Positions 9,953 through 63,189 of a stretch of 64,000 bases of DNA are shown here, piece by piece. Position 1 is the stretch's first letter. Each line of letters begins with the position of its first letter. Location of the stretch: the NCBI RefSeq assembly GCF_900112205.1, contig NZ_FOKW01000004.1, positions 62,001-126,000 of the forward strand. Direction: 5' to 3'. The notes under the pieces were generated by a model. It had not been told where the DNA came from and made no database searches. It saw only the letters and a program-made list of their open reading frames with translations. Source of the DNA: Natronobacterium haloterrestre. GTDB taxonomy: Archaea; Halobacteriota; Halobacteria; Halobacteriales; Natrialbaceae. Position numbers and translations under genes: made by a program.

Positions 9953-10645
9953 TTACCCATCAGACTGACCGACGATTTTGTCCGCCGATCGATCCTGGTA
10001 CTCGCTGCCGGGAACGCTGAGAAACTCGTCCCGACGGACGTCGTACGCGGTGAGACGGCCGCCGTAGACACAGCCGGTATCGAGGCCGACGGCCCACTCC
10101 CGTTCGATGGGGTCGGCGAGCACCGTGTGCCCGAAAAACACCCGCGGCGGTCCCTCGTACTCCTCGAACCAGAACGGGCCGTCGTACCCGTCACCGTCGG
10201 GCGATCGCATCGTCCGTACGTCGTCGCCGGCGTGTGCGACCAGGGCCCGATCCGGGTCGACACCACCGTGGACGACCAGCCCTCCGTCCCAGGAGATCGC
10301 CGTCGGAAGCGACGCGAGGTAGGTCCGATCCTCCTCGTCGAGTTCCGGCAGTTCGGTCTCGCCGGCGAGGAGTTTCTGTTCGTTGTTCCCACGGATGGAC
10401 ATGAGCCGCGGCGAAGACTCGACTCGCTCGAGCACGGCCGCGCTCTCGGGCCCCTTGCGGACCAGATCGCCGACGAACACCGCGAGGTCGTCGTCGTCCA
10501 GCGAGAGGGTCGACAGCAACCTCTCGAGCGCCTCGAGACAGCCGTGGACGTCACCGACGACGTACACGTCGTCGTAGTTCGCGAGGTCGATACGCTGGTG
10601 ATCGAACGATAGGGTGCCGTCGGACGTCGGTGCCGTAGTCGTCAC
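9953..10645 (-). CDS. ApaH/PP1-like metallophosphoesterase
   Basis: This is a 230-residue calcineurin-like phosphoesterase starting with GTG at 10645. All metal-binding motifs are visible in order: GDVHG (near 31), GDLVRKGP (near 58), RGNNE (near 86), HGG (near 121), GHT (near 173), and LDTGCVYGGRLTA as the closing segment. The pattern matches PP1-like serine/threonine phosphatases and ApaH dinucleotide-tetraphosphatases, and sequence alone does not separate them. It is 5' of ppk1 with overlapping or adjacent codons, which suggests a link to phosphate or polyphosphate metabolism. A TATA-like TTTATAT at 10686-10692 is the likely promoter. Confidence 0.88.
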   Translation of the reverse strand: MTTTAPTSDGTLSFDHQRIDLANYDDVYVVGDVHGCLEALERLLSTLSLDDDDLAVFVGDLVRKGPESAAVLERVESSPRLMSIRGNNEQKLLAGETELPELDEEDRTYLASLPTAISWDGGLVVHGGVDPDRALVAHAGDDVRTMRSPDGDGYDGPFWFEEYEGPPRVFFGHTVLADPIEREWAVGLDTGCVYGGRLTAYDVRRDEFLSVPGSEYQDRSADKIVGQSDG

Positions 10646-10807
10646 GTGTTCTCCCTCGGCGGTTCACACAGAATCAGATAAATCGTTTATATGATCCCAA
10701 CGTAACGATATATAGCCGTACGCAGGACTGCGGACCTGACGCGTCTCGGATCGTTCTCTCAGGTCGCCTCGGTGCGAAAAAGCCGCTCGGTCTCGACCGC
10801 ATCCGCG

Positions 10808-11818
10808 CTACTCGCCGATCGTCGATTCCGCCGTCGCCCGGGCGACGTTGCCGCCGATCTCGGCGGTCCGTTCCAGGCTCCGGAGCACGGCCCCGTAGAG
10901 GAACGCGTCCGGTCCGCCGCTATCGTACAATCGCCGGTCGACCTCCGACACCGACCGCCTGACGTCGGAACGGGCCGAAAGCGCTCGCTCCGTTTCGCCC
11001 GAAAGCGCCAGTTCGACGACGCGTCGCGCGTCGCCGCCGACCGTCTCGAGGCGATCGGCCAGCTCCGCCTCGGGTGGCGACGATTGCCGGGCCGGGACCT
11101 CCGCGATCCGTTCGGCGTGGTCCGCGACCCGTTCGAGCTGGCGGGCGATCCGGTACTGTCGGAAGGCGGCGGTCCGATCCGTTCCGAGGCGATCGATTTC
11201 GTGAACGTCCTCGAGTCCGCGGTGGAAGCCCCGACTCACGAACGCGAAGAGGCGGTCGACGTCGTCGTCGCGGCCGATCACCTGCCGGGCGAGGTCCTCG
11301 TCGCCGTCCCGGACGGCGCGGACGGCGTCCTCGTGCATCTCGAGGGCGAGCTGGCGGGCCTGGGCCACGGTCTGGGGGAGCGACACCTCGCCGACGTCGA
11401 GCACGCTCGAAGCCGTGATCGCGTCCGCCGCGACCGTCTCGATCTCCATCCCGACCAGCCGACCGATCGCCCGTTCCAGGGTGCGACGCGCGTCCGGTTC
11501 GAGCGCGTCCGCGTTCTCGATCGTGATCCGGTCGTAGCCGGCCAGGTAGGCCGCACGTGCACGCTGAAGAACTGATTCGTCGTCGATCGGTTCGGCATCG
11601 ATGGTGACGGTCCGGTCCCGGCAGGAGACGGTTCCCGCGGCGGCCACGAGTCGGTCCTCGAGGGGGTAGAGGTACATCGAACTGCCGGACTCGAGGCCCT
11701 GTTCGGTGGCCCACTCCTTGGGCAGCGAAACCACGAACGTCGAGTTGCCGGCGATCTGGACTTTTCGCTCGACGGGGGCTCGGACGTCGTCGGTGTCCGG
11801 GATTCGGTTCGCGCTCAT
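10808..11818 (-). CDS. AbrB-PhoU fusion regulator, last gene of the pst operon
   Basis: The protein has 336 residues. Residues 15-60 form a SpoVT-AbrB swapped-hairpin DNA-binding domain (KVQIAGNSTFVVSLPKEWA ... LYPLEDRLVA). The rest is helical with PhoU-type features, including ARQLERVADHAERIAEVP and the final ERTAEIGGNVARAT. It starts 3 bp after phoU in the row pstS-C-A-B-phoU-this gene. In archaea AbrB-PhoU proteins are thought to couple PhoU sensing of the Pst transporter to DNA binding. A paralogue with the same architecture lies beyond pstS at 17697-18692. The two share the VSLPKEWATE core but are otherwise diverged. Confidence 0.9.
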   Translation of the reverse strand: MSANRIPDTDDVRAPVERKVQIAGNSTFVVSLPKEWATEQGLESGSSMYLYPLEDRLVAAAGTVSCRDRTVTIDAEPIDDESVLQRARAAYLAGYDRITIENADALEPDARRTLERAIGRLVGMEIETVAADAITASSVLDVGEVSLPQTVAQARQLALEMHEDAVRAVRDGDEDLARQVIGRDDDVDRLFAFVSRGFHRGLEDVHEIDRLGTDRTAAFRQYRIARQLERVADHAERIAEVPARQSSPPEAELADRLETVGGDARRVVELALSGETERALSARSDVRRSVSEVDRRLYDSGGPDAFLYGAVLRSLERTAEIGGNVARATAESTIGE

Positions 11819-16280: not shown

Positions 16281-17312
16281 TCACTGAGCCTGGCTGATCG
16301 CGTCCTCGAGCTTGTCTTCCTGCTCCTGCTTGACGTCTTGCGTAGCCGGGACGTACCCGACCTCCTCGGCGACGAGCTGTTCGTTGTCGGTCTGGTCGAC
16401 GAAGTAGCGGGCGAACTCGGCGATGTGCTCCTCGGCGAGCGACGAAATCGAGGGGTAGGTGTAAATCTGGCGCGACAGTGGACTGTACTCGCCCGAGGCA
16501 GCCGTCTCGAGGTTCGGCTCGACGGGGCCGTTGCCGTTGTCGATCGCGACTGCGGTCACCGTATCGGGGTTCTGATAGTAGTACGCGAAGCCGAAGTACC
16601 CGATCGCGTACTCGTTGCCCTGAACACCCTGGACGATAGTGTTGTCCTGTTCCGTCGCCTGGTAGTCGTCGGTGTGACCGCGGTCCTCTCCCTGAACGTT
16701 CTCGACGAAGTAGTCGTACGTACCGGAGGTCTCGTCTGCACCGTACCGGTCGATCGGCTCGTCGGGCCACTCGTCGCGGACGTCGTTCCAGGTTTCGGCG
16801 GCGTCGGCCTCCCAGATCTGGGCGAGTTCCTCGACGGTCATCTCGGTCGCGAAGTCGTTGTCGTTGTTGATAACGACCGTCAGCGCGTCCGTCGCGGCGA
16901 CCAGTTCGATGTACTCGACGCCGTTTTCGGCACAGTGGTCCTCCTCTTCGGGCTTGATCGGCCGGCTCGCGTTGTTGAAGTCAGTGTTGCCGGGACAGAA
17001 GTGGTTCTCGAAGCCACCGCCGGAGCCGGTCGAACTGATGTCGATCGAGACGTCGTCGTGTTCTCGCTCGAACTCCTCGGCAACTGCGCTCATCAGCGGG
17101 AAGACGGTACTCGAGCCCGCAATGTTGATTTCTCCCGAGAGGCCGCTGCCGCCGCCATTGCTCCCGGTGTCGGTCTCGGCACCGGATCCGTCGCCGTCTC
17201 CCGTCTCCTCTTCGGTACAGCCCGCAAGTGCGACGGCCCCCGCGCCGCCGGCCGCCGAAATGAATCGTCGTCGCGATACACCGATACCGGACTGGGACGT
17301 GTCGTCCGTCAT
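16281..17312 (-). CDS. pstS: Phosphate-binding lipoprotein PstS, Tat-exported
   Basis: PstS captures phosphate outside the cell for PstCAB. The protein has 343 residues from ATG 17312; a GTG lies immediately before it. The signal has SRRRF (13-17), a hydrophobic run and the lipobox LAGC with Cys32, so it is a twin-arginine lipoprotein. A Gly/Asp/Ser linker follows. The binding fold starts at EINIAGSSTVFPLMSAVAEE, then ISSTGSGGGF, DFNNASRPIK, ALTVVINNDN, GADETSGTYDYF and YAIGYFGFAYY, all phosphate-site segments of the family. The start of the pst operon is here. A TATA-like TTTATACG (minus strand) at 17334-17341 suggests a very short leader. Confidence 0.96.
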   Translation of the reverse strand: MTDDTSQSGIGVSRRRFISAAGGAGAVALAGCTEEETGDGDGSGAETDTGSNGGGSGLSGEINIAGSSTVFPLMSAVAEEFEREHDDVSIDISSTGSGGGFENHFCPGNTDFNNASRPIKPEEEDHCAENGVEYIELVAATDALTVVINNDNDFATEMTVEELAQIWEADAAETWNDVRDEWPDEPIDRYGADETSGTYDYFVENVQGEDRGHTDDYQATEQDNTIVQGVQGNEYAIGYFGFAYYYQNPDTVTAVAIDNGNGPVEPNLETAASGEYSPLSRQIYTYPSISSLAEEHIAEFARYFVDQTDNEQLVAEEVGYVPATQDVKQEQEDKLEDAISQAQ

Positions 17313-17696
17313 CACCTGAGCACAATCAGGACACGTATAAAGAGGATGCTAATATCTATATACCCTGCCGGCTACGACAATAGAGTACTATTTTCGACAA
17401 CGTAGTTATCGATATCGAAACCGATCGGCCGATATCCACCGTCGATCCCGTGTTTCGACGGGAAACGCACTCCTCGTGGCTTTTCCAGCCAATCCATGTC
17501 CCGCGGATGCACGTCTCGCTCGACAGTTAACGTCTCTTATGGGGCAGTACCTTCATGGATATACTAATATATACTCCTATATACTAGTATGATTAGTACG
17601 TTCGAAAACGGACCTCGATCGGGACAAACGCGGGATAAATGGACTCACTCAATAGATTCTGGTGGATTTATATCCTCCCTGGCGAAACGTTCGGCT
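17313..17696. promoter_or_regulatory. Divergent regulatory region between pstS and an AbrB-PhoU gene
   Basis: This 384-bp region contains no gene. On the pstS side there is a TATA-like element at 17334-17341 and a second AT-rich element at about 17350-17362. On the AbrB-PhoU side there is TTTATAT at 17667-17673, about 26 bp before ATG 17697, implying a leaderless mRNA. Between them lie AT-rich tracts, including the three phased repeats listed separately. Phosphate-starvation control of both directions is expected from the gene content but is not proven by sequence. Confidence 0.7.
17559..17588. promoter_or_regulatory. Three tandem 10-bp repeats ATATACTNNT, candidate phosphate-response site
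   Basis: Three units ATATACTAAT, ATATACTCCT and ATATACTAGT follow each other without gap at 17559-17568, 17569-17578 and 17579-17588. The 10-bp period is one helical turn, so each copy faces the same side of DNA, as expected for cooperative binding by a repeated protein unit. The site lies between the divergent pstS and AbrB-PhoU genes, about 110 bp from the latter start. The alternative reading is a stack of TATA boxes. Confidence 0.5.
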
Positions 17697-18692
17697 ATGG
17701 AGACTCGTAAGGTCCAGGTGACCGGGGGGTCGACGTACACGGTCTCGCTTCCGAAAGAATGGGCGACGGAAAACAGCGTCTCGAGCGGCGATACCGTCGA
17801 GATCTATTCCGAGGACGACACGCTGCTGGTCACGCCGCGAAGCGACGCCGACCACCAGGAAGGCACGCTCGACGTCTCCACGCTCGAGGGCCAACGCCTC
17901 ACCCGGGCCGTGCTCACGATGTACGTCAGCGGGTTCGACGTGATCCGGCTCCAGGCCGGCCGGATCACGACGGAACAGCGCCGGGCGATCCGGTCGGCGA
18001 TTCAGGGCCTGATCGGCGTCGAAGTCGTCGAGGAGACGACTGACGGCGTCGTCATCCAGGACCTGCTGGACTCGGCGGAGCTGTCGATCGTCAACGCCGT
18101 CACGCGGATGCGCCTGATCGCGACGTCGATGCTCGAGGACGCGGTGACGGCGCTGGTCGAGAACGACGACGACATCGCCCACGACGTCATCGAACGCGAC
18201 GACGACGTCGACCGGCTCTGGCTCGTGGTCTCACGGATCTTCCGCGCGACGCTTCGCTCGCCCGGCGCGGCGGAGGAACTCGGGGTCTCCCGCGAGGACT
18301 GTTTCGACTTCCACTCTAGCGCCCGTCAACTCGAGCGCGTCGCGGACCACGCCGTCAAGATCAGCCAGCTCGCGCTGAAACTCGAGGAGATTCCCGAGGA
18401 CGTCGCGGATGCACTGCTGGAACTCCACGCCGACGCCTCCGAAATCCTCGAGAAATCGATGGATGCGCTGTTCGCCGAGGAAAGCGGCGAAGCGACCGAA
18501 CTGGGCCACGACGCGCTCGAGTCGGTGCTCGGGATCGACGAGCATACGCGCCACATCGACGACATGCTCCGCGAACAGGAGTCCGTCCAGGCCCAGTCGC
18601 TCGGGCTGATTCTCGATTCGCTCTCTCGAAGCGCCGACTACGGCGGGAACGTCGCCGAGACGGCCCTGCAGAAGGCAGCACCCAGCCCGTAG
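17697..18692 (+). CDS. AbrB-PhoU fusion regulator, divergent from pstS
   Basis: This 331-residue protein carries an N-terminal AbrB-like DNA-binding hairpin (METRKVQVTGGSTYTVSLPK, then EWATENSVSSGDTVEIYSED) and PhoU-like helical repeats (HDVIERDDDVDRLWLVVSRI, SARQLERVADHAVKISQLAL, RSADYGGNVAETA). The start ATG 17697 is chosen because a TATA-like TTTATAT ends 23 bp before it. A longer open frame upstream overlaps the promoter and encodes nothing plausible. It is transcribed away from the pst operon. Its likely role is transcriptional control of phosphate uptake, by analogy with AbrB-PhoU proteins of other haloarchaea; the paralogue at 10808-11818 closes the operon on the other side. Confidence 0.9.
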   Translation: METRKVQVTGGSTYTVSLPKEWATENSVSSGDTVEIYSEDDTLLVTPRSDADHQEGTLDVSTLEGQRLTRAVLTMYVSGFDVIRLQAGRITTEQRRAIRSAIQGLIGVEVVEETTDGVVIQDLLDSAELSIVNAVTRMRLIATSMLEDAVTALVENDDDIAHDVIERDDDVDRLWLVVSRIFRATLRSPGAAEELGVSREDCFDFHSSARQLERVADHAVKISQLALKLEEIPEDVADALLELHADASEILEKSMDALFAEESGEATELGHDALESVLGIDEHTRHIDDMLREQESVQAQSLGLILDSLSRSADYGGNVAETALQKAAPSP

Positions 18693-42466: not shown

Positions 42467-43660
42467 CTACAGGTCCGCCGGATCGACCCGTTCGACCGTC
42501 GCTCGGACCGCGAAGAACGCGCCGACGCCCAGCGTCCCGTAGAGCGCGAGCAACAACCACGTCGTGCCCGTCGCGCTCCCGAGTCCGAACTTGGCGACGG
42601 TGTTCGCCGGGTGCTCGGGCAGGAGCGTCGACACCACCAGCGCGCCGACGATAGCGACCGAGTACAGCAGCTGGGCCTGCCTGCGATCCGGCGCGACGAG
42701 GGCGACGACCGTCCCGAGGCCGACGACCAGCAGGGCCAGCGCGGCGACCAGGCCGACCAGCGCGACCGGGTGGGCGACGGTCGTCCCGTTGACCGCCAGC
42801 AGCGCCAGCCAGGCGACCGCCTGGACGGGCGCGAGCGCCGTCGTCGCCGCGAGCTTCGCGTCGACGACGTCGCCCAGCGACAGCGGCGTCACCCGCAGCA
42901 ACTCGAGCGTGCCCCGTTCGCGTTCCTCGACCAGCGAGTCGACGACGATCGAGCCGCTGATGAACGCCGGCAGGAACAGCAACAGCGGCAGGAGGATCGT
43001 GTACGTGAACCCGACGTACGGGCTCGCGTCGACCTCGTCGGGGACCGACAGCGGGAGCGACTCGAGCCGGTCCGCGTTCCCGACGCGTTCGGCGTGTTCG
43101 ACGGCCTCGAGCGTCTCCCGGAGCTGGACGACCAGCAGGGTCGTCTCGATCCCCTCCTCCGGCGCAGCGACGTCGACGAGCAATCGTCCCTGGTCGTCCC
43201 TGGTGGTCTCGAGGACGGCGGCCGCCCGTCCGTTCTCGAAGCTCCCGTAAGCCGCTTCACGGGTGTCGTATCTGACGGTATTCAGCCCCTCCTGTTCGTC
43301 GGCCGCAGCCTCGAGCACGGCGCGGTCCTCGCCGACGATGGCGACGTCGATCTCCTGACCGCCGAGCCCGTCGGGATCGTACATGGAGACGAAGCCGACG
43401 ACGAGAAACGAGGAAAACGCCGCGATGAACAGCTGGATCGCGATCGCGAGCACGATCGTCTTTTCGGAGCGTAGGGAACGCAGTTCCCGGCGGACGACGG
43501 CCAACCGTGGGCCGAACCGGGACTCGCGACCGCCGCCGGTCGCGGCTGCGTGTTCCGGCGGCTCCGGCGGGTTCGGTCCCCGCTGGATGGAGTCCGCCGA
43601 ACTGCCAATGTCGTGGCCCGTCTCGCTCGAGTCGCCTCTAGACGATCGATCACGCGACAA
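42467..43660 (-). CDS. ABC-2 type transporter permease
   Basis: The protein has 397 residues and must start with TTG at 43660, since no ATG or GTG is in frame early enough; this start lies 11 bp inside the upstream gene. After a disordered N-terminus, a first helix (TIVLAIAIQLFIAAFSSFLV) is followed by a soluble extracellular domain of about 150 residues and then five to six helices: TILLPLLLFLPAFISGSIVV, VQAVAWLALLAVNG, VALVGLVAALALLVVGLGTV and others. RERGTLELLRVTPLSLGDVV is the cytosolic loop typical of NatB/ABC-2 permeases. It is the third gene of an exporter operon. Confidence 0.88.
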   Translation of the reverse strand: MSRDRSSRGDSSETGHDIGSSADSIQRGPNPPEPPEHAAATGGGRESRFGPRLAVVRRELRSLRSEKTIVLAIAIQLFIAAFSSFLVVGFVSMYDPDGLGGQEIDVAIVGEDRAVLEAAADEQEGLNTVRYDTREAAYGSFENGRAAAVLETTRDDQGRLLVDVAAPEEGIETTLLVVQLRETLEAVEHAERVGNADRLESLPLSVPDEVDASPYVGFTYTILLPLLLFLPAFISGSIVVDSLVEERERGTLELLRVTPLSLGDVVDAKLAATTALAPVQAVAWLALLAVNGTTVAHPVALVGLVAALALLVVGLGTVVALVAPDRRQAQLLYSVAIVGALVVSTLLPEHPANTVAKFGLGSATGTTWLLLALYGTLGVGAFFAVRATVERVDPADL

Positions 43661-62789: not shown

Positions 62790-62958
62790 GCGTCTCGTCG
62801 TTCGATGGGTGCGGCCGTAAAACGGTCGCGTCCTCCGGGCCACGAGCGACGGCGTGTCACGAGAGACGGTGACAACGGTCCTACTAGGACGTAGCGTTCC
62901 ATTTTAACACAATGGCCGGTGCGCCTATATACGGGAACGTGGTCCGGTCGCAGTGACA

Positions 62959-63189
62959 ATGCAATCACAGGAGCACCGTTCCGAGAAACGGATCGAACCG
63001 GTCCCGGAAGGAGTCGAGTCGGCACAGGCGAAACTCGTCTACATCTACCTCGAGGCGGTCGGCGGCGCGACGGTCGACGAACTGGCTGACGTCCTGACGT
63101 TGAAGAAAATAGACGTGCTGAGCGTGCTGAACTCGCTGTCGACCGCGGGCGTGATCGAACGGGACGGCGACGAGTACGTCGCGTCCTGA
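62959..63189 (+). CDS. Small winged-helix transcriptional regulator next to glnA
   Basis: The protein has 76 residues from ATG 62959. A TATA-like TATATAC at about 62926-62932 is 27-33 bp upstream, so the mRNA is leaderless. A GTG two codons earlier is an alternative. The core is one winged helix: SAQAKLVYIYLEAVGGATVD, then ELADVLTLKKIDVLSVLNSL and STAGVIERDGDEYVAS as recognition helix and wing. It resembles MarR- or TrmB-type DNA-binding domains without an effector part. It is convergent with glutamine synthetase. A role in nitrogen control is possible by position only. Confidence 0.85.
   Translation: MQSQEHRSEKRIEPVPEGVESAQAKLVYIYLEAVGGATVDELADVLTLKKIDVLSVLNSLSTAGVIERDGDEYVAS

Follow-up and report, generated by a model that had tools for sequence, protein, structure and literature searches.

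A TA-rich three-unit array between pstS and a divergent AbrB-PhoU gene as a predicted phosphate operator in Natronobacterium haloterrestre

The divergent pstS/AbrB-PhoU region and its array

The DNA analyzed here, a 64-kb stretch of the Natronobacterium haloterrestre genome (hereafter the window), carries the genes and sites listed in Table 1. The pstS gene, starting at ATG 17312 or GTG 17315 on the minus strand, and a gene encoding an AbrB-PhoU fusion protein diverge from an intergenic region of 381 bp (17316-17696) with a GC content of 47%, against 67% for the window. The pst operon ends in a PhoU gene and a second AbrB-PhoU gene, which are followed by the metallophosphatase and polyphosphate kinase genes. 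The first-pass annotation had placed a set of 10-bp repeats in the control region shared by pstS and AbrB-PhoU, and the array is indeed found between the two starts. It lies 78-98 bp upstream of the AbrB-PhoU TATA box, its core being 130 bp before the start codon, and does not abut the BRE/TATA of the regulated gene, unlike most pstS matches described below; the sites that do abut a TATA box are the pstS site at 17349 and the polyphosphate kinase box at 10697. As a separate box-like site is present next to the pstS TATA box, the array is mainly an element of the AbrB-PhoU side.

Table 1. Genes and sites of the window (positions are those of the window)
Feature	Position	Strand	Evidence or remarks
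Polyphosphate kinase gene	ORF 7564 onward		after the metallophosphatase gene; start uncertain
Metallophosphatase gene	9953..10645	-	downstream of the 10697-10716 box
Pho-box CTATATATCGTTACGTT	10697..10716	-	upstream of the TATA of the metallophosphatase/polyphosphate kinase genes
Second AbrB-PhoU paralogue	10808..11818	-	end of pst operon; 34% identical; AbrB domain below Pfam cut-off
pstS, phosphate-binding protein	16281..17312	-	TIGR02136 E = 6e-72; PF12849
pstS TATA box (predicted), TTTATA on minus strand	17336..17341	-	sequence; ~25 bp before pstS ATG
pstS-proximal box-like site CTAATATCTATATACCCT	17349..17366	+	7 bp upstream of pstS TATA
Second box-like site near pstS, contains AATAGAGTACTATTTTCGACAAC	17375..17408	+	R1 model; kept in same-genus locus L241
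Array of three 10-bp units (ATATACTAAT, ATATACTCCT, ATATACTAGT)	17559..17588	+	sequence, TRF
Pho-box core within array, TATATACTCCTATATA vs model consensus TATATAGctCTATGTT	17568..17583	+	R1 match
Array extension ATGATTAGTACG	17589..17600	+	sequence; same in L241 but for two bases
AbrB-PhoU proximal box CTCAATAGA	17648..17656	+	de novo motif; just upstream of BRE/TATA
AbrB-PhoU TATA box (ATTTATATC)	17666..17674	+	ATTTATat conserved in relatives
AbrB-PhoU gene, 331 aa	17697..18692	+	AbrB/MazE domain 7-50, PhoU domain 135-225

Relatives of the AbrB-PhoU gene were collected by a genome scan with the protein, and the best 80 of 331 loci encoding relatives, nearly all from Natrialbaceae, were used for comparison. 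The ATG at 17589, directly 3' of the array, was considered as an alternative AbrB-PhoU start. It is probably not one, since homologous frames start at 17697 or one codon earlier and 55/80 of these relatives contain an in-frame stop within the 36 codons upstream of the start.

The three contiguous 10-bp repeats proved exact in coordinates and sequence. The count of identical positions given in the first-pass annotation needs a correction: positions 1-7 and also position 10 are identical in all three units, that is eight rather than seven of ten. The unit pattern ATATACTNNT occurs three times in the window, always inside the array, against an expectation of 0.04 from dinucleotide shuffles, and three copies were reached in 0/100 shuffles. 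Allowing up to 2 mismatches, a two-unit pattern matched only the array (2 overlapping matches) in the whole 4.5-Mb genome, and its control, the same pattern read backwards, gave 1 match. TRF reported a repeat at 17559-17590 with period 10 and score 43. The best 20-bp stretch at lag 10 has 16/20 matches, with p = 0.00025 under a local Markov null (4000 draws) and p = 0.0027 (1500 draws) when any lag from 6 to 15 is allowed. The same lag-10 strength is tied once more in the window, at 43184, and elsewhere 13 to 19 matches are reached at the remaining lags between 6 and 15. As a bare repeat the array is only moderately improbable, so that function must be argued from conservation; and because the exact repeat motif was found nowhere but in the array, a model derived from relatives was adopted.

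The box in relatives and its genomic distribution

Motif discovery upstream of AbrB-PhoU uncovered two elements, a proximal and a distal box. The proximal consensus is.cTCTATAGAt....gtggATTTATatTc. (80 loci plus the window and L004), and the distal consensus is CTATATAg..cTAtgTt.g.caac, scoring 671 where shuffled sequence scored 76 (81 sequences with the window included, 72 of them nonredundant). Their equivalents in the window are the array for the distal box and CTCAATAGA for the proximal one. The latter is one base off the family consensus CTCTATAGA and is none of five listed variants, one of which is present at the same place in 76/80 relatives (best 80 of 331 loci). Among these loci the distal box exceeds 8 bits in only 53/80, where its core lies at a median of 157 bp before the start codon, compared with 130 bp for the array; its median distance to the proximal box is 112 bp (50/80 loci). 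The relatives' box also consists of three units, CTATG(N4)CTATATAG(NN)CTATGTT, in which the TA steps are 9 and 10 bp apart. The helical phasing proposed for the repeats is thus borne out in the relatives, which share a three-unit, roughly helical spacing. Judged by sequence comparison, what is conserved is not a perfect ATATACTNNT repeat but a TATATA/CTAT core recurring in units spaced 9-10 bp, and the array resembles the relatives' three-unit design in a more regular form. The TACGTTCG that follows the array extension is similar to the CTACGTTCG with which some relatives' boxes end (e.g., L009). A conserved GnCAACnnTTnnC flank is also present 3' of the family distal boxes (36 sequences of the alignment, L009-L087) and may be the site of a second protein.

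A model, R1, was built from the distal boxes of 36 relatives, with the window excluded. Run on the 64-kb window with all filters off, it gave four matches only at E<=10 (E 0.26 to 1.6), and all four fall in pho promoters: the array core (7.7 bits, E = 0.26 per 64 kb; matched in its central and right-hand units), the second pstS-side site (17384-17401, 7.0 bits, E = 0.44), the metallophosphatase/polyphosphate kinase promoter (10697-10716, 6.4 bits, E = 0.65) and the pstS-proximal site (17350-17363, 5.2 bits, E = 1.6). Each match is weak alone and their weight comes from all four falling in pho promoters. Searched against the whole own genome, R1 gave zero matches at E<=1, the array included; with this result and a score of 7.7 bits, the array is a diverged member of the box family, identified largely by its place and company, and we infer that it could still work as a pho-box. 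A 30-bit PWM score for the array was not counted as evidence, being inflated because the PWM training set contained the window.

The other sites of the window have features of their own. The pstS-proximal site CTAATATCTATATACCCT has the same form in L008, L012 and L014. When at most 1 mismatch is allowed, the pattern CTATATANNNCTAYRTT matches the own genome once only, at the metallophosphatase/polyphosphate kinase promoter. The box there suggests that in Natronobacterium haloterrestre the control extends to polyphosphate kinase. The hexamer TATATA occurs at 5 positions in the window, 4/5 of them in pho-promoter sites. The fifth (CTATATA at 62925-62931), the sole one outside pho promoters, is ~30 bp before the ATG at 62959 and is probably a TATA box.

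Comparison with L241, a locus from the same genus whose AbrB-PhoU is 98.5% identical and whose PstS is 50% identical, separates what is kept from what is lost. Its units read ATATATTAAT ATATAGTACT ATATATTGGT, so the 10-bp phase and the TA-rich core are kept and the exact repeat is lost, and its R1 score reaches E = 0.031. Identity to the window is 66/80 for the array and flank, 40/48 from the array to the proximal box, 43/51 for the proximal box and TATA, and 84/96 for the pstS promoter, compared with 71/120 for mid-intergenic DNA. Among other loci organized like the window's own, R1 was clear in L218 (E 5.5e-7) and L008 (E 5.9e-4) and weak in L012, L014 and L217 (E 0.058, 0.12 and 1.0, respectively). 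The own genome's 85%-identical AbrB-PhoU copy has a weak site only, and of the five best PstS orthologues from other genomes, three (L216, L219 and L220) lack a divergent AbrB-PhoU. Elsewhere, no R1 match was found upstream of pstS on Haloferax mediterranei pHME505 at E<=5, and no clear box was seen in the phoX/AbrB-PhoU region of Haladaptatus. A good box is present at pstS of Halostagnicola larsenii (PWM 21.2 bits; L245 2937), and Natronomonas pharaonis PL131 pstS has a CTATATACAT CTATATACAT repeat (PWM 11.6 bits; L246 5264) with an R1 score of 9.8 bits (E = 0.053).

A search for the motif by other haloarchaeal pst genes, proposed in the first-pass annotation, gave a strong association when done with the relatives' model. 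In 61 family genomes R1 found 73 matches at E<=0.05, present in 52/61 genomes, and an automatic rule (gene 5' end within -120..700 bp of the match), for which the background is ~0.3% (estimated by hand), assigns 70/73 to pst or AbrB-PhoU genes. When the 16 training sites are removed, 54/57 remain at such genes. The three family exceptions are a pstS/AbrB-PhoU locus with over-extended ORF calls (L099), a site between MgtC-family and PHP-domain genes (L143), and a pho-box-like site upstream of a phosphonate ABC transporter (L144), the last possibly belonging to a wider phosphorus regulon. In six family loci (L119-L124) a pho-box match lies between pstA and pstB, which suggests that pstB is separately promoted there.

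The association extends beyond the family. In a class-wide draw of 145 genomes, R1 had matches in 70, of which 37 are outside the family (at most 108 such genomes), and no match at E<=0.05 in the other 75/145. The 38 matches in these 37 genomes include 0 training sites, and 32/38 are at pst/AbrB-PhoU genes. Typically a TAAATAC element adjoins the box, which precedes the pstS start by 40-55 bp, and AbrB-PhoU is divergent. The six exceptions are L198, with other pst genes within the locus, L186, adjoining a DUF7305/DUF7289 gene, L205, with no Pfam match among the two ORFs tested, L194, and the pair L202 and L206. This pair comes from two genomes of a single other family and shows, close to a GAPDH gene, a TA palindrome that looks like the box (E 0.024 and 0.034). 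In a consensus of 33 outside-family sites, from which L186, L194, L202, L205 and L206 were omitted as no phosphate gene adjoins them, TA steps peak at -8, +1/3/5 and +11, corresponding to unit spacings of 9 and 10 bp, and again at -16, which is the pstS TATA; this consensus is biased as its sites were chosen by R1. When the DNA preceding AbrB-PhoU in two other families was searched motif-blind by EM (54 loci, one of 55 being too short; 49 nonredundant), the same box was recovered with a score of 629, compared with 107 for mononucleotide-shuffled sequence. The search found the box beside TAAATAC, plus a second box before the AbrB-PhoU TATA. The idea that the shared region holds a phosphate control site is supported by the concentration of the box family at pst, AbrB-PhoU and PhoU promoters; the perfect repeat is not the conserved part, as L241 differs.

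A candidate regulator and competing readings

The data above point very strongly to a predicted operator for phosphate genes. More specifically, the array is probably a pho-box, a haloarchaeal phosphate-regulon operator on the AbrB-PhoU side with AbrB-PhoU as its likely predicted binder. Taken by itself, the choice of AbrB-PhoU as the candidate binder is somewhat less firm, if still likely; it is based on conserved divergent linkage, co-conservation and the presence of an AbrB/MazE-type domain (Pfam E = 5e-12), whose RKVQ and PK.WA motifs are invariant in a 38-protein alignment. In the predicted structure the PhoU bundle is confident and matches PhoU crystal structures, and the AbrB part, modelled as a monomer, is of low confidence. 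The fold carries no further information about DNA binding, since the ten PDB matches at E<=0.001 are nine proteins labelled PhoU and one hypothetical protein. An extra alpha-beta stretch (residues 55-122) is predicted between the AbrB and PhoU parts.

If AbrB-PhoU binds the array, the three units would place TA-rich contacts on nearly one helix face, so that an oligomer, probably two or more AbrB dimers, could bind side by side. The PhoU part may then report phosphate or the state of the Pst transporter and alter DNA binding. The predicted outcome would be autoregulation of AbrB-PhoU and, together with the sites by the pstS TATA, control of pstS. Both the phosphate response and its sign are presumed here, and activation and repression would each fit. 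A bolder model, which we put forward tentatively and hold to be somewhat less probable than its negation, is that AbrB-PhoU does by itself what the PhoU-PhoR-PhoB chain does in bacteria, its PhoU domain sensing the phosphate state and its AbrB domain reading phased three-unit pho-boxes throughout the haloarchaea; in the window, both genes would then be controlled by a single assembly, cooperative or looped, made up of the array, the pstS sites and the proximal box.

The phosphate-regulon operator could instead be read by another factor (e.g., Lrp, TrmB or another HTH protein), AbrB-PhoU only signaling or acting at the transporter. The conserved GnCAACnnTTnnC flank could be the site of such a protein, and PhoU regulators are named as pho-box binders only second-hand, in a later paper (PMC6560208). 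However, an AbrB-PhoU gene starts less than 700 bp away in 46/73 family and 29/38 outside-family matches, the protein has a DNA-binding-type domain, and in Natrinema (L060, L064, L067, L069, L081, L082 and L086) AbrB-PhoU keeps the box where no pstS relative was found within ~3 kb. We therefore regard a separate reader as unlikely, although it is the alternative that survives best.

The units contain TATA, and the ATG at 17589 is followed by an open frame to 17697, so one could picture the array as core-promoter DNA in which TATA-like elements are stacked, providing a further start site for an AbrB-PhoU that is leadered or extended at its N terminus. This is very improbable as the array core is 130 bp from the start, compared with the 25-30 bp expected of a TATA element, the relatives' boxes lie ~157 bp upstream at a rather fixed distance (53/80 loci), and the frame comparison and upstream stops given above speak against an earlier start. 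The TATA-box reading of the array was rejected, as the conserved TATA at 17666, ~25-30 bp before the conserved start, serves 17697.

Slighter still is the chance that the array is a functionless tandem repeat in AT-rich intergenic DNA. The second lag-10 periodicity in the window, the absence of the exact repeat from L241 and the lack of a whole-genome R1 match would all fit such an origin, but the position, phase and TATATA core are common to relatives, the array and flank are better kept in L241 than mid-intergenic DNA, and the R1 matches of the window are confined to pho promoters; pure chance was rejected on this conservation and confinement. Equally improbable is a chromatin or histone-positioning signal setting occupancy at the divergent promoter: TA steps near a 10-bp phase favor bending, but the box has a definite sequence, occurs almost exclusively at phosphate genes and is no general promoter feature.

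Relation to known systems

The bacterial Pho box, bound by the OmpR-type response regulators PhoB or PhoP, consists of ~11-bp direct repeats upstream of pst promoters. The haloarchaeal box is like it in that direct repeats spaced at about one helical turn stand in tandem upstream of pst promoters, and the two would work alike; it differs in sequence and in its 9-10-bp TA-rich units. The array does not fit the PhoB Pho box, its unit being the 10-bp ATATACTNNT compared with the 11-bp repeats of the PhoB consensus. Operators of the AbrB/MazE/SpoVT family are AT-rich targets of swapped-hairpin dimers, often of several dimers. The candidate target here is likewise AT-rich; unlike in that family, the AbrB domain is fused to PhoU.

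To our knowledge, phosphate sensing in archaea is poorly known and apparently proceeds without a PhoR-PhoB pair. A box consensus common to several haloarchaeal families, together with the adjoining AbrB-PhoU fusion, therefore offers a candidate regulator-operator pair that can be tested by specific mutations. The consensus CTATATAG was not found among the literature matches listed, most subscription papers being outside the search. The kind of site is nevertheless a known one, because pho-boxes have already been reported in Halobacterium pst promoters: according to PMC6560208, which cites Furtwängler 2010, the pho-box in the Halobacterium salinarum pst promoters is a motif bound by PhoU regulators and is essential for upregulation. 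The present boxes are likewise in haloarchaeal pst promoters, a likeness of placement as described there. Relative to the H. salinarum pho-box, the array would be an additional box, placed on the AbrB-PhoU side of the divergent region.
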